Assembly: GCF_947631635.1 (NCBI RefSeq)
Contig: NZ_CANRMB010000001.1
Coordinates: 248,001-312,000, forward strand
DNA: 64,000 nt
Reading direction: 5' to 3'
DNA from: an uncultured Dysosmobacter sp.
Lineage (GTDB): Bacteria > Bacillota > Clostridia > Oscillospirales > Oscillospiraceae
Shown: in pieces, positions 56,979-62,147 of the stretch
Layout of the letters: the number at the start of each line of letters is the position of its first letter
How positions within the stretch are numbered: the first letter of the stretch is position 1
Notes under the pieces: model-generated
What the model was told of the DNA's origin: nothing
The model's database searches: none
The model's input: the letters and a program-made list of their open reading frames with translations, nothing else
Made by a program: the position numbers and the translations under genes

Positions 56979-57185
56979 ATGACGATTAAAATCAGATTGC
57001 GGGAATTACGAAAAGAGAAAGGCGAAACACAAGTCCAGGTGGCAGAGGCAGTTGAAATGGTAGAACAGCATTATCAAAGGTTGGAGAGAGGTGCAAACCT
57101 GCCGAATTTGGAAAGCGCCTGGAAGCTGGCGGACCATTTTGGCGTCTCCATTGACTATCTGGTGGGGCGCTCCGACCAGCGGTGA
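56979..57185 (+). CDS. Small XRE family regulator
   Basis: IKIRLRELRKEKGETQVQVAEAVEMVEQHYQRLERGANLPNLESAWKLADHFGVSIDYLVGRSD. Confidence 0.85.
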   Translation: MTIKIRLRELRKEKGETQVQVAEAVEMVEQHYQRLERGANLPNLESAWKLADHFGVSIDYLVGRSDQR

Positions 57186-57194
57186 GGAATTGTT

Positions 57195-58145
57195 CCGCCT
57201 GCGGGCGGGGACAGGGGATTGCACGGCTTTGCCGTGGGGGAATGCGGTGCATCACCGCAGAATGCACCCCCCATTTTCTTTGGTTGCGCCAAAGAAAACG
57301 GGCCGTGCACGGTCCAAAAGAAAAACGCTTTTTGTGTCCACAGTTGGCCCATCGGGCCAACTGTGGACGGACGGGAGTTGGTGGTTAGATGTGCCACCAA
57401 GCCCGGAAATCTTCTTTTGGGTGCGCTATACAGGGTACGAGAGTAGGAGTGCGTGCCCGCATTTGGGGGCTTAGGTACAAATTTGGGGTGGTCGACAAAA
57501 GGCTTTCAGCAACAAGCCCCGTGTGTTCCGCTTCACTGCACACTACCTGGGCAGTTACATTGGCCATCGACGGGTGCGCCGGGCCGGGTACGAGTTTAGA
57601 ACTGTGCTGTTGCAAGTTGGCGGCTTAGGCGTAGATTCGGGGTGGTCGTCGAAAGACCTTTACCACTGGCCGCGTGTGTTCCGCTTCGCTGCACACTACC
57701 TGGGCGGTTAAATTGGCCATCGACGGATGCGCCGGACTTGGTACGAGTTTAGAACTGCGCCGCTGTAGGCATTTCCGCAAGGACCCAAAGAGCGGCAGCG
57801 ACAGGAGCCCGCTGGTCCTTTCAGTCTTTGACCGACCTCGCAATTCCCATTCGCGTGGCTAAAAACCGAAAGATTTAGCAAGACTGTGCCCGCGCCCAAC
57901 GCTGAATCCAGCCTCGACCACCATCGGTCTCTTTCTGGGACCCCACGTCTTGTCCACAGTTGGCCCTAGGGGCCAACTGTGGACACAAAAGCGCCTTTCT
58001 TTTGACCGGGCGCGGCCGTCAAGGTGAGCCGCACAGCGGCGAGAAGGCCCTCTGGAGGGTTTTCTTTGGGCAAGACCCAAAGAAAATGGGGGCGCATTCC
58101 CGTGCCGCAAAGCGGCAAACCCCCGTCCCCGCCCCGTGGGCGGAA
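57195..58145. repeat. Large structured intergenic repeat R1 (inverted copy of R2)
   Basis: Hairpins GTCCACAGTTGGCCC-atc-GGGCCAACTGTGGAC (57336-57368) and TGTCCACAGTTGGCCC-tag-GGGCCAACTGTGGACA (57951-57985); capping TTTTCTTTGG/CCAAAGAAAA stems; 153-bp tandem modules (GTACGAG at 57435/57588/57741). Confidence 0.85.
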
Positions 58146-58287
58146 AAATCCCCATCCCCCGCCCGCAGCGCAAAATCCCCGCCCCGCCCGCAGGCGAACT
58201 CCTCCTTCCATTCCCCAGAATGCGGCACGATCACAGGGGATAACCCCGGACGACCCCCGCGGCATAGACTGTTTCGAGGTGATCGGA

Positions 58288-58611
58288 ATGGTATTGCTGC
58301 AAGATGGATTACTGGCATTCTTCTCCGCCGTAGGCGTGACAACCGTGGTGTGGTTCGTGGCGGGAGCGCTTCTGCACGCCGGACGGCCTGCGATCCCAGG
58401 CCTGCTGCTGGTCCTGCCCCTGCGGGGAGAGGCCCTGGCCATGGAGGCGGACGTGCGGGAGCTGCGGCGCGTTCAGGGACAGCTGCCGGGAGCGAAGATC
58501 GTTCTGGCGGACTGCGGGCTGACGGAGGACGCCCGGGGACTGGCCCAGTATCTGGCAGACCGGGAGCGGAACGCGGATCTGGTAAACGCAAAAGAATTTT
58601 ACGTGGGATGA
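58288..58611 (+). CDS. Small hypothetical protein with N-terminal TM
   Basis: MVLLQDGLLAFFSAVGVTTVVWFVAGALLHAGRPAIPGLLLVLPLRGEALAMEADVRELRRVQGQLPGAKIVLADCGLTEDARGLAQYL. Confidence 0.65.
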   Translation: MVLLQDGLLAFFSAVGVTTVVWFVAGALLHAGRPAIPGLLLVLPLRGEALAMEADVRELRRVQGQLPGAKIVLADCGLTEDARGLAQYLADRERNADLVNAKEFYVG

Positions 58612-58632
58612 ATTCCCTGAAAGAGGACATAC

Positions 58633-60837
58633 ATGGAAGAGCTGACCTGCTGTGAGGGAACCGTACATAGCGTCATTTTTCAAAACGCTGAAAATGGCTA
58701 TACTGTCCTCCGCCTTTTGACGGAGGAGGGCGAGGTCATCACCGTGGTGGGCTGCATCCCCTGCGTGGCGCCGGGAGAGCGCCTGACGGTGTCCGGCGAG
58801 TGGGAGACCCACCCCCAGCATGGGGAGCAGCTGCGGGCTTTGGAGTTGGAGCGGGCCCTGCCGGAGGATGAGGAGGAGATCTTCAGCTACCTCTCCTCCG
58901 GCGTCTGCAAGGGCGTCGGCCCAGCCATCGCCCGGCGCATCGTGGACCGCTTCGGCGTGGAGACGCTGGATATCCTGGAACAGGAGCCGGAGCGCCTGCA
59001 GACGATCAAGGGCATTACCGCCAAAAAGGCCCAGGAGATCGCCGCCGGGTTCCGGCAGCACATGGGCCTGCGGCGGCTGATGGCCTTTTTGGCGCGGTAT
59101 CAGCTGCCGCCGGTGCTTGCCATGCAGCTGCGGCAGCAGTACGGCGACGCGGCGCTGGAGATGGTGCGGGGGAATCCCTATCTGCTGTCCAGCGACGCCT
59201 GCGGCGTGGAGTTTTCCATTACAGACGAGATCGCCATGAGCATGGGCATCGCCGCCGACAGCGGCGAGCGGCTCCGGGCGGCTGTGACCTTTGAGCTGTC
59301 CCACAATGAGAACAACGGCCATGTGTTCCTGCCCCGGAACAAGCTGGTGGCCGCCACCTGCCAGCTTTTGGACTGCCCGCCGGAGCTGGTGGAACAGGCG
59401 CTGGACGACCTTGTGGAGCGGCGGGCAGTGGTGCAGGAGCAGGTGGCGAATGTGGAGGCCTGCTATCTGCGGCGGCTGTGGGAGGCGGAGGTCTCCGCCT
59501 GCGTGCGGCTGAACCATCTGCTGGCGATGGAGGCGGACGAGAGCCGGCAGGCGGAGAGGACCGTGGCGGAGATCGAGCGGGAGCAGGGCATCACGTACGC
59601 GCCCCAGCAGCGGCAGGCGGTGCAGGCGGCGGCCCGGGAGGGCGTCCTGATCCTGACCGGCGGCCCCGGCACCGGCAAGACCACCACGGTGCGGGGCATC
59701 GTGGCGCTGTTTCAAAAAATGGGACTGGACATCGTGCTGGCGGCGCCCACTGGCCGGGCGGCGAAACGCATGAGCGAGCTGACCGGTATGGAGGCCCAGA
59801 CGATCCACCGTCTGCTGGGCATGAGCTGGAGTGAGTCCGCCCGGCAGGTGACGTTTACAAAATCGGAAAAGGAGCCGCTGGAGGCGGACGCGGTGATCGT
59901 GGACGAGATGTCCATGGTGGACCTTGCCCTGTTTTCGGCGCTTTTGCGGGCGCTGCGGCCCGGCACCCGGCTGGTGCTGGTGGGCGACGCGGACCAGCTC
60001 CCCTCCGTGGGAGCGGGGAACGTGTTCTCCGACCTGATCCGCAGCGGCCGGGTGGAGACGGTCTTCCTGCGGGAGGTGTTCCGCCAGGCGGAGCAGTCCG
60101 CCATCATCCGCAACGCCCACGCGGTGAATATAGGGGAGGCACCGTCACTGACCAATAATCAGGGGGATTTCTTCTTCCTGTGCCGCCGGGACGCCGAGCG
60201 GACCGTATCCACGGTGGTGGAGCTGTGCAGGACCCGCCTGCCGGAGAAAATGGGCATTCCGGCGGACCAGATCCAGGTCCTGACACCCACGCGAAAGGGC
60301 GCCAGCGGCACCATTCACCTGAACCGGTGTTTGCAGGAGGCGCTGAATCCCCCAAAACCGGACAAGCGGGAGATCATGTGGGGCGAGCGGCTGTTCCGGG
60401 AGGGCGACCGCATCATGCAGACGCGGAACGACTACGATGTGGTCTGGGAAAAAGCGGACGGCGCCATAGGCACCGGCATGTTCAACGGCGATGTGGGGAA
60501 GATCGTGCAGATCGATCCCTCCGGCGAGTGGCTGGCGGTGGACTTCGACGGGCGCGGGGCTCTTTACGGCGTGGAGATGCTGAACGAGGTGGAGTTGGCC
60601 TATGCCATGACAGTCCATAAAGCCCAGGGCAGTGAGTACCGGGCGGTGGTGATGGCCGCCATGCCGGCGGCGCAGTCCCTGATGGCCCGCGGGGTGCTGT
60701 ACACGGCCCTGACACGGGCGCGGGAGCTGCTGATCGTGGTGGGAGACGACGCGGCCATTCGGACTATGGCGGCGAATGACCGGCAGCAGAGGCGGTATTC
60801 CGGCCTGCGGTGGCGGCTGGCCCACAGCGGAGAGTAA
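58633..60837 (+). CDS. recD2: ATP-dependent RecD2-like DNA helicase
   Basis: N-terminal OB/HhH region, GGPGTGKTTTVRGIV, VDEMSMVD, VGDADQLPSVGAGNVFSDLI, AYAMTVHKAQGSEYRAVV. Confidence 0.94.
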   Translation: MEELTCCEGTVHSVIFQNAENGYTVLRLLTEEGEVITVVGCIPCVAPGERLTVSGEWETHPQHGEQLRALELERALPEDEEEIFSYLSSGVCKGVGPAIARRIVDRFGVETLDILEQEPERLQTIKGITAKKAQEIAAGFRQHMGLRRLMAFLARYQLPPVLAMQLRQQYGDAALEMVRGNPYLLSSDACGVEFSITDEIAMSMGIAADSGERLRAAVTFELSHNENNGHVFLPRNKLVAATCQLLDCPPELVEQALDDLVERRAVVQEQVANVEACYLRRLWEAEVSACVRLNHLLAMEADESRQAERTVAEIEREQGITYAPQQRQAVQAAAREGVLILTGGPGTGKTTTVRGIVALFQKMGLDIVLAAPTGRAAKRMSELTGMEAQTIHRLLGMSWSESARQVTFTKSEKEPLEADAVIVDEMSMVDLALFSALLRALRPGTRLVLVGDADQLPSVGAGNVFSDLIRSGRVETVFLREVFRQAEQSAIIRNAHAVNIGEAPSLTNNQGDFFFLCRRDAERTVSTVVELCRTRLPEKMGIPADQIQVLTPTRKGASGTIHLNRCLQEALNPPKPDKREIMWGERLFREGDRIMQTRNDYDVVWEKADGAIGTGMFNGDVGKIVQIDPSGEWLAVDFDGRGALYGVEMLNEVELAYAMTVHKAQGSEYRAVVMAAMPAAQSLMARGVLYTALTRARELLIVVGDDAAIRTMAANDRQQRRYSGLRWRLAHSGE

Positions 60838-60853
60838 GGGGTTATGCGGCGGG

Positions 60854-61788
60854 TTCCGCCCACGGGCGGGGACGGGGGAGTGTGCCGCTTTGCGGCACGG
60901 GAATGAACCCCCATTTTCTTTTCGGTTGCGCCGAAAAGAAAACGGCCGTTCACGGTCAAAAGAAAAGGCGCTTTGGTGTCCACAGTTGGCCCAATGGGTC
61001 AACTGTGGACGAGACGTGGGGTCTCAGAAAGAAACCGTTGGTGGTCGAGGGCAAATTCAGCGTTGGGCGCGGGCATGGTTTTGCTGAATCTTTCGGTTTT
61101 TAGCCACGCGAATCGGAATTGCGAGGTCGGGCAAAGACTGAAAGGACCAGCGGCTCCTGTCGCTGCCGCTCTTTGGTTCCTTGCGGAAGCGCCTGCGTGT
61201 GGGCCTTATATGGGATCAGACATTGCTGAAAGCTTTTTGATGACCAACCCGGATTTGCATCCACACCCTAACTTGCGGCGGCGCAGTTCTAAACCCGTAC
61301 CAAGTCCGGCGCACCTGGCAGAGGTCAATTCAACTGCCCAGGTAGTGTGCAGCAAAGCGGAACACACAGGGCTTGTTGCTGAAAGCCTTTCGATGACCAC
61401 CCCAAATCCGCACCCAAGCCTCCAAATATGGGCACGCACTCCTACCCTCGTACCAATTCCGACGCCCTCGGCAGAGGCCAATTTGACCGCCCAGGTAGTG
61501 TGCAGCGAAGCGGAACACACGGGGCCAGTGGTAAAAGCCTTTCGACAACCGCCCCAGATTTGCACCCGCGCCCCCAAATGCGGGCACGTACTTCTGCCCT
61601 CGTATCCGGTATAGCGCACCCAGCAGAAAATTTCCGGGCTTGGTGGCACATCTAACCACCAACCCCCGTCCGTCCAACTTTGCCCCAGAGGGCAAAGTTG
61701 GACACCCAAAAGCGTTTTTCTTTTGGACCGTGCACGGCCCGTTTTCTTTGGCGCAACCAAAGAAAATGGGGGGTGCATTCCCCCGTGA
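60854..61788. repeat. Large structured intergenic repeat R2 (inverted copy of R1)
   Basis: Hairpins GTCCACAGTTGGCCC-aat-GGGTCAACTGTGGAC (60978-61010) and GTCCAACTTTGCCC-caga-GGGCAAAGTTGGAC (61672-61703); TTTTCTTTTCGG/CCGAAAAGAAAA cap; ~153-bp tandem modules. Confidence 0.85.
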
Positions 61789-61889: not shown

Positions 61890-62147
61890 GTGATTATCTT
61901 GAAAACAGAAATTTTAAAATATGGCAGAATTCGAGATTTGCGTAATGACAGGGGACTGACACAGACTGATATAGCGAAAATTCTGAATGTAAAACAGAAT
62001 ACTTATTGCCAATATGAGACAGGGATCATCAACTATCCGCTGGATTTAGTCATTAAACTGGCAGAATACTATGATGTCAGTGTAGACTACCTTGTTGGGC
62101 TGACGGACGAGCCAAGTCCATATCCCAGAAGGCGGAGGCAGTCATGA
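61890..62147 (+). CDS. XRE family regulator
   Basis: GRIRDLRNDRGLTQTDIAKILNVKQNTYCQYETGIINYPLDLVIKLAEYYDVSVDYLVGLTDEP. Confidence 0.85.
   Translation: MIILKTEILKYGRIRDLRNDRGLTQTDIAKILNVKQNTYCQYETGIINYPLDLVIKLAEYYDVSVDYLVGLTDEPSPYPRRRRQS

Follow-up and report, generated by a model that had tools for sequence, protein, structure and literature searches.

The two inverted repeats that flank recD2 in the window analysed here (the whole 64,000-nucleotide stretch of DNA from a gut bacterium, an uncultured Dysosmobacter sp.) are probably members of a dispersed family of non-coding and non-autonomous DNA elements, of which the terminal inverted repeats are predicted to be intrastrand triplex modules. 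The evidence comes from the organization of the repeats, their distribution and, above all, the manner in which their ends vary.

The repeat pair and its family

The two repeats, R1 and R2, are reverse-complement copies of one non-coding repeat located on both sides of the RecD2 gene (Pfam HHH_RecD2), and end roughly where the preliminary description had placed them. The inverted relationship proposed there was borne out by inverted arms of 260, 195, 185 and 43 nt with complementarity of 85, 89, 84 and 93%, respectively. The core element, bounded by conserved ends, spans 835 bp in R1 (57262–58096, + strand), with U units followed by a V half, and 875 bp in R2 (60904–61778, − strand), as an inverted copy of R1. 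The repeated core that had been claimed was found in both as a tandem unit (U) of approximately 153 bp, present in two and a half copies in R1 (57419–57757, +) and three in R2 (61223–61627, −). The V half occupies 141 nt in R1 (57811–57951, +) and lies at 61011–61151 (−) in R2; it aligned without gaps in all 18 of 18 copies. R1 also carries a left subterminal hairpin, GTCCACAGTTGGCCC/GGGCCAACTGTGGAC (57336–57368, +), and a right one (57954–57985, −), and immediately outside its right end lies the outer palindrome GTGCCGCAAAGCGGCAA (58102–58118, +), the position of which is taken by unrelated palindromes in other copies.

Based on BLASTN analysis of the same genome, we identified 91 pieces forming approximately 18 scattered elements, a number that excludes chance as the source of the likeness between R1 and R2. 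These copies are 80–94% identical, and thus a recent burst is not visible. Pairs of inward-facing ends, 0.38–1.4 kb apart, were detected in several genomes; the elements sit between genes, and their interiors differ from copy to copy in length, in type and in the number of tandem units. The distribution is patchy within one bacterial family, with 18 of 106 genera carrying the element. Of the 18 copies in this genome, 11 have a small XRE helix-turn-helix gene as a neighbour, and the XRE stop codons, many of which face the element, lie 10–140 bp from most adjacent elements. In the window, one such gene (56979–57185, +) directs its stop codon towards the left end of R1, and another (61890–62147, +) is located beside the outer end of R2. 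Orthologs of the former in G072 (L110) and of the latter in G068 (L126) have no element alongside, and where the element is missing in other species, the genes that flank it here are undisrupted.

As previously claimed, no transposase was found in R1 or R2. Among the matches listed, no end pair exceeded 1.4 kb, as an autonomous copy might, and the longest contained an XRE gene and a small ORF but no transposase. No target-site duplication was found, the outer borders merging into variable palindromes that make it hard to call. A phage or plasmid origin was dropped, as no match was obtained, the viral contigs being scanned with one exact pattern. A literature search for this repeat in Dysosmobacter or Oscillibacter returned nothing. 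The dispersal, the inverted ends, the empty sister loci and the lack of both a transposase and an Rfam match fit well with the earlier suggestion of a non-autonomous mobile element outside the known classes.

Organization of the ends

Read from the outside inwards, in each end a pyrimidine (Y) tract is separated by a loop from a complementary purine (R) tract, and a GC palindrome then leads to a third tract, again of purines, that mirrors the second. This order is the one that an intrastrand triplex requires of its sequence. All four ends gave a covariance model (CM) match, and for all but the right end of R1 the mirror test or direct reading of the sequence was drawn on as well. The left end of R1 (57263–57325, +; 81.4 bits) contains the Y tract TTTTCTTT (57274–57281), the R tract AAAGAAAA (57291–57298), the GC palindrome (57301–57314) and the mirror R tract AAAAGAAA (57316–57323). 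The right end of R1 (57993–58096, −) reads on the + strand TTTCTTTT (57996–58003), TTTTCTTT (58060–58067) and AAAGAAAA (58079–58086); its CM score was just 24.7 bits because it carries a 41-nt hairpin insert (58019–58059), which recurs at both C34a ends and at one C34b end. The inner end of R2 (60904–60968, +) contains TTTTCTTTTC (60914–60923), GAAAAGAAAA (60933–60942), a palindrome (60944–60957) and the mirror tract AAAAGAAAAG (60958–60967), which is exact at 10 of 10 positions, and the outer end (61715–61777, −) reads on the + strand TTTCTTTT (61717–61724), TTTTCTTT (61742–61749) and AAAGAAAA (61759–61766). The second loop, which is the spacer with the GC palindrome, is 14–18 nt long in almost every end, and 79 of 108 have a tract spacing of 17 nt. 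When folded as DNA, the end hairpins gave z-scores of −7.3, −5.7, −4.3 and −2.1 against shuffled sequences.

Mirror covariation of the three tracts

Among 117 unique ends, 116 were asymmetric, and in these the mirror arrangement was superior to a direct repeat in 95, equal in 19 and inferior in 2. When 40 distinct tract types, drawn from several genera, were compared, third tracts agreed with the mirrors of their own partners at 94.7% of positions, with 25 of 39 exact, while the same types read as direct repeats gave a match of 0.796 and none exact. With swapped partners the match was 0.758 ± 0.013, and the observed 0.947 was reached by 0 of 2000 shuffles, a count that is not a strict probability, the tracts being of low complexity and the sequences related by descent. 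Among the ends that matched by 80% or more, the mirror was broken at only 23 of 1142 third-strand positions. The covariation, proposed earlier as a check on the repeats, proved strong: ten pairs in the end hairpin showed compensatory change, and 41 double-change cells were counted against 10.2 ± 2.3 in shuffles. It was concentrated in the two ends of approximately 65 nt.

The mirroring of the second tract by the third, a feature absent from the preliminary description, indicates a putative triple helix. Watson–Crick pairing of the first tract with the third was rejected, as the fit of its register is poorer than that of the mirror. Within one element, the two ends may differ in their tracts while each remains self-consistent, which favours pairing within an end and argues against a single sequence-specific protein binding to both. 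We know of no mutational process that copies sequence in mirror orientation, and templated mutation is thus not an easy explanation of the rule. Since the design persists through many related genera even as its letters change completely, the triple helix, rather than the sequence, is likely to be the working part of the ends.

Properties of the interior

Folding of the interior (57380–57945) was indistinguishable from that of shuffled sequence, with z-scores of −0.66 and +1.10 for the two strands. Accordingly, the dense self-complementarity noted earlier holds for the ends, where the hairpins are far stronger than shuffles, but not for the interior; and the suggestion of a large structured RNA was not supported, as the covariation is also confined mainly to the ends. 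Selection at the codon level was not detected: the U units differ among themselves by 1-nt indels, so that the reading frame is not kept, and the variable sites of the V half are distributed over the three codon positions as 20/16/22, without bias. A protein-coding tandem repeat, represented by a 207-aa ORF on the minus strand of R2, was discarded, as 1-nt indels and stops in other copies break the frame. In a search of 4227 Rfam models the repeats matched none, and this stretch of the window gave only chance-level miRNA matches; both this and the lack of codon-level selection are in favour of the preliminary description, as is the strong covariation. The Rfam search also detected an unrelated TPP riboswitch in one locus.

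Alternative functions of the ends

The mirror data also fit a function at the RNA level, because the strand opposite to one in class II order carries the class IV pyrimidine motif. Transcription out of the element, whichever way it ran, would yield RNAs that finish in a U.A-U/C+.G-C triple helix protecting the 3′ end. Read inside-out, the order Y, GC hairpin, Y, loop and R is that of the ENE-type (MALAT1-like) RNA triple helix, and the XRE stop codons facing the element raise the possibility of a 3′ UTR. RNA triplexes of the pyrimidine motif exist, while those of the purine motif do not (PMC4666352). However, one transcript would use one end only, yet both are kept; neither strand of the interior outperforms shuffled sequence in folding; in G-rich tracts such as GAGAAGAAGAGGAG, several C+.G-C triads, some of them adjacent, would have to be protonated; and G-U intermediates are almost absent among the compensatory changes. 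Judged by eye, the cases bearing on a G-U strand bias between RNA and DNA were too few for a choice. We regard this function as unlikely.

It is quite improbable that the family is an ordinary MITE, in which the ends would be transposase sites of a lost insertion sequence and the hairpins and mirror side effects of low-complexity A/G tracts. The inverted ends, size, intergenic sites and lack of genes agree with this, but the mirror match was not reproduced by swapped partners, and the ends vary within an element and across genera with the mirror rule kept, which a sequence-specific binder would forbid. Mobilization by RAYT was also rejected, the Y1 transposase (Y1_Tnp, PF01797) giving no match in 6 of the 13 element-carrying genomes searched (G082, G088, G152, G160, G256 and G291). 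That the ends, lying behind XRE genes, act as bidirectional terminators of transcription or as barriers to replication and transcription, the interior being a passive spacer, is very improbable: strong hairpins with T-rich tracts and the short distance to the XRE stop codons are as expected, but the mirrored third tract and the pairing of ends around 0.4–1.4 kb are left unexplained, several neighbours retain their own terminator outside the element, and the E. coli PIT elements showed neither promoter nor terminator activity (PMC4666352).

Comparison with known repeats

MITEs resemble this family in being non-coding, dispersed and without transposase, with terminal inverted repeats, but here the ends appear to be kept as structure rather than sequence, target-site duplications were not found, and the elements are 0.4–1.4 kb with mosaic interiors. 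The REP/REPIN/BIME repeats moved by Y1/RAYT are likewise intergenic paired palindromes in mosaic arrays; the present elements are much longer, with putative triplex ends. Pneumococcal BOX elements also combine end modules with a variable number of middle units and are much smaller; they are not known to follow a triplex rule. ENE/MALAT1-type triple helices share the tract order and GC hairpin on the inside-out strand, but are eukaryotic RNAs, whereas here both ends carry the tract order.

The nearest known relative is the intrastrand triplex motif PIT/BoxC/TMECO of E. coli and its relatives, in which a mirrored third purine tract likewise completes the class II order Y-R-R (PMC4666352). This motif is also intergenic, present in many copies, sometimes in inverted pairs, and very uneven in copy number between related strains. 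The class II motif as defined in PMC4666352 was found here in its Y tract, complementary R tract and antiparallel mirror third R tract, but the second loop of 14–18 nt exceeds the limits of 1–6 nt (ITxF) and 0–10 nt (earlier search). TMECO measures 36–37 nt, has a 3-nt second loop and G/C-rich letters that hardly vary, and is not tied to mobile elements (PMC4666352); in our family the tracts are rich in A and can change freely, being TTTTCTTT-like and variable rather than following the consensus CCCTCNCCC..GGGNGAGGG..GGGNGAGGG, and both ends of a 0.4–1.4 kb repeat consist of the motif. The E. coli motif does form class II triplexes of this kind in vitro, but the triplex was not shown by in vivo footprinting of TMECO (PMC4666352).

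A model of the element and its significance

In the model that we propose, an end would become single-stranded at a lagging-strand gap, during repair or on DNA uptake, and its outside-in strand would then fold into a Y-R hairpin. The third tract would lie antiparallel in the major groove of this hairpin as a class II purine motif with A.A-T and G.G-C triads, the GC palindrome capping the turn. In the purine motif, triads rich in A are weaker than those rich in G, which counts against a triplex reading of the A-rich tracts. More speculatively, structure rather than sequence might mark both ends for copying or joining by a recombination or repair activity acting in trans. Ends marked in this manner could cooperate despite differing sequences, interiors could be exchanged between copies and element-free loci would be left. 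The sites at which the element has settled are mostly immediately behind genes, those of small XRE regulators above all. It is conceivable, though we hold this only tentatively, that the family represents mobile DNA with the Y-R-R triplex as its recognized end, any such DNA being joined or copied by a structure-specific host activity; if so, the ends would drift freely in sequence and the interiors would be swappable.

Whether triplex DNA plays a biological role in bacteria has been an open question since PIT/BoxC was described, prior evidence consisting of in vitro folding and abundance. Because the Y, R and third tracts change together in the mirror sense, evolution itself supplies a test of the triplex. 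The co-change of three tracts, in a sense that only a triplex predicts and in approximately 40 variants across genera, constitutes natural covariation evidence, which points to an intrastrand triplex under selection in a family of dispersed elements. The natural tract variants offer a ready set for biophysics and genetics in gut bacteria.

Two inverted copies of a dispersed non-coding repeat

R1 and R2 had been described as reverse-complement copies of one non-coding repeat, and the comparison bore this out: inverted around recD2, they belong to a set of about 18 copies in the host genome (3.34 Mb; fragmented assembly of 59 contigs). Trimmed to conserved ends, the R1 core spans 57262-58096 and the R2 core 60904-61778, with core length ranging from 569 to 1110 bp across 18 copies. 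Each core has a pair of ~65-nt inverted ends and a subterminal hairpin, either of the GTCCACAGTTGGCCC type or of the unrelated GTCCAACTTTGCCCC type. Its middle is made up of between one and three units of ~153 bp (U), and the 141 nt to their right (V) are ungapped in 18/18 copies. Variable palindromes adjoin the element at both ends, so that neither an outer border nor a target duplication could be defined. Arrays of small palindromic units (CCCCGTCCC plus a variable palindrome, GTGCCGCAAAGCGGCAC) lie outside the ends at 57195-57262, 58100-58200 and 60845-60900; at other copies, the palindrome adjoining the end is unrelated in sequence, with pairing kept.

The preliminary description also proposed a large structured RNA, which the interior does not support. 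On both strands, the R1 interior folded like shuffled sequence (z -0.66 and +1.10), ruling out an unusually folded RNA; strong folding was confined to the ends, which, folded as DNA, performed far better than shuffles. A gene was ruled out by single-base indels between U units and by variable sites spread evenly over codon positions in V, giving no sign of the codon-level selection raised earlier. The repeat matched no Rfam family, in keeping with the earlier failure to assign it to a known class. By inspection, the interior in relatives is a mosaic in which U-like and V-like sequences can take up either half and face either way; the shortest elements there measure 376 bp. Of 54 elements, 46 contain a short motif, GCGGCAGCG or AGCGAAGCG, which sits roughly midway along those other-genus elements that carry it. 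One 1.4-kb element (L104:13317-14716, genome G018) contains an XRE gene together with an ORF of 92 aa, and is possibly a cargo-bearing copy. A TPP riboswitch match lies near an element of another genome (G256, L152:2030-2144).

The ends obey a mirror rule

Read from the element edge inward, every end presents a pyrimidine (Y) tract, a loop, a purine (R) tract, a spacer with a GC palindrome and a second R tract (tract 3). The suggested covariation was found in the Y–R hairpin, with 10 compensatory pairs. Double-change cells numbered 41, where shuffling predicts 10.2, and the signal was lost once the partner was slid by one to three columns. Tract 3 covaries with the other two. It was initially read as an alternative pairing, which was displaced by other-genus ends whose longer, less symmetric tracts showed it to mirror tract 2 (AAGAAAAGAAAGAA / AAGAAAGAAAAGAA, GAAAGAGAAGA / AGAAGAGAAAG, GAGAAGAAGAGGAG / GAGGAGAAGAAGAG). 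Among 116 asymmetric ends, the mirror fitted better than a direct repeat in 95, equally in 19 and worse in 2. When every one of the 39 asymmetric tract types was given a single count, identity to the mirror was 0.947 (25 exact), compared with 0.796 (none exact) for a direct repeat; swapping partners among these types, whose ends share descent, gave 0.758 ± 0.013, and 0/2000 shuffles reached the observed value. Departures affected 23/1142 positions in ends with at least 80% match, and tract spacing was 17 nt in 79/108 ends. A TCAAGGTGAGCCGC..GAGGG hairpin, an optional module of 41–45 nt, separates tracts 2 and 3 in the R1 right end (58019-58059); it recurs at the identical point in other copies, including both ends of copy C34a.

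The tracts at the left end of an element can differ from those at its right end, which favours pairing inside a single end. The mirror relation of tract 3 fits the requirement of a triple helix, which would have to be a reverse-Hoogsteen purine motif on the outside-in strand and a Hoogsteen pyrimidine motif on the complement. The nearest known relative, from E. coli, is the intrastrand triplex called PIT/BoxC/TMECO. It has the same class II order and sometimes occurs in inverted pairs, but its G/C-rich letters are fixed, its second loop is 3 nt long and no element surrounds it (PMC4666352). Because their second loop measures 14–18 nt, the present ends fall outside published triplex-motif searches, with loop limits of 6 or 10 nt (PMC4666352). 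A literature search on the family, limited to journals outside subscription, found no paper.

Distribution and neighbouring genes

The end pattern is common to relatives named Dysosmobacter, Oscillibacter and other Oscillospiraceae. A covariance model built from the hairpin part of the end, with up to 20 candidates scored per genome, gave matches in at least 18 of the 106 genera in the family; in a class-wide draw of 291 genomes, only the host genome matched. Plasmid and phage records gave no BLASTN match, and viral contigs no match to one exact pattern.

A small XRE helix-turn-helix gene adjoins 11/18 elements in the host genome (binomial p about 8e-10, assuming a generous 6% chance per element), its stop codon facing the element in 10 of the 11 pairs, R2 being the exception. 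The arrangement recurs in congeneric species and in G239, from another genus, at loci picked for carrying elements. Both recD2 flanks are variable slots, occupied in other species by an element with a different interior, an XRE gene alone or neither. The XRE genes adjacent to R1 and R2 have element-free orthologs in G072 (L110) and G068 (L126), respectively, indicating insertion or loss of elements there. At L125:4145-4193, two apparent end arms are fused without an interior, possibly an internal-deletion remnant. Clearly different small XRE genes occupy the slot between recD2 and a comF-like gene by species (61890-62147; L113, L118, L121, L126), as though such regulators came in interchangeable cassettes.

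The comparisons establish the covarying Y–R–R mirror rule, paired inverted ends, dispersal and absence from orthologous loci. In the main rival reading, transcripts leaving the element outward would carry an RNA triple helix at their 3' ends. This would fit the same sequence data, the purine motif of one strand being the pyrimidine motif of the other (PMC4666352), but we consider it unlikely. The repeat is rather, and probably, a family of non-autonomous DNA elements with ends acting through shape, in line with the mobile element first suggested. In such elements, the end would fold while the DNA is single-stranded, and a structure-specific activity would recognize the folded end, through which the element may move.
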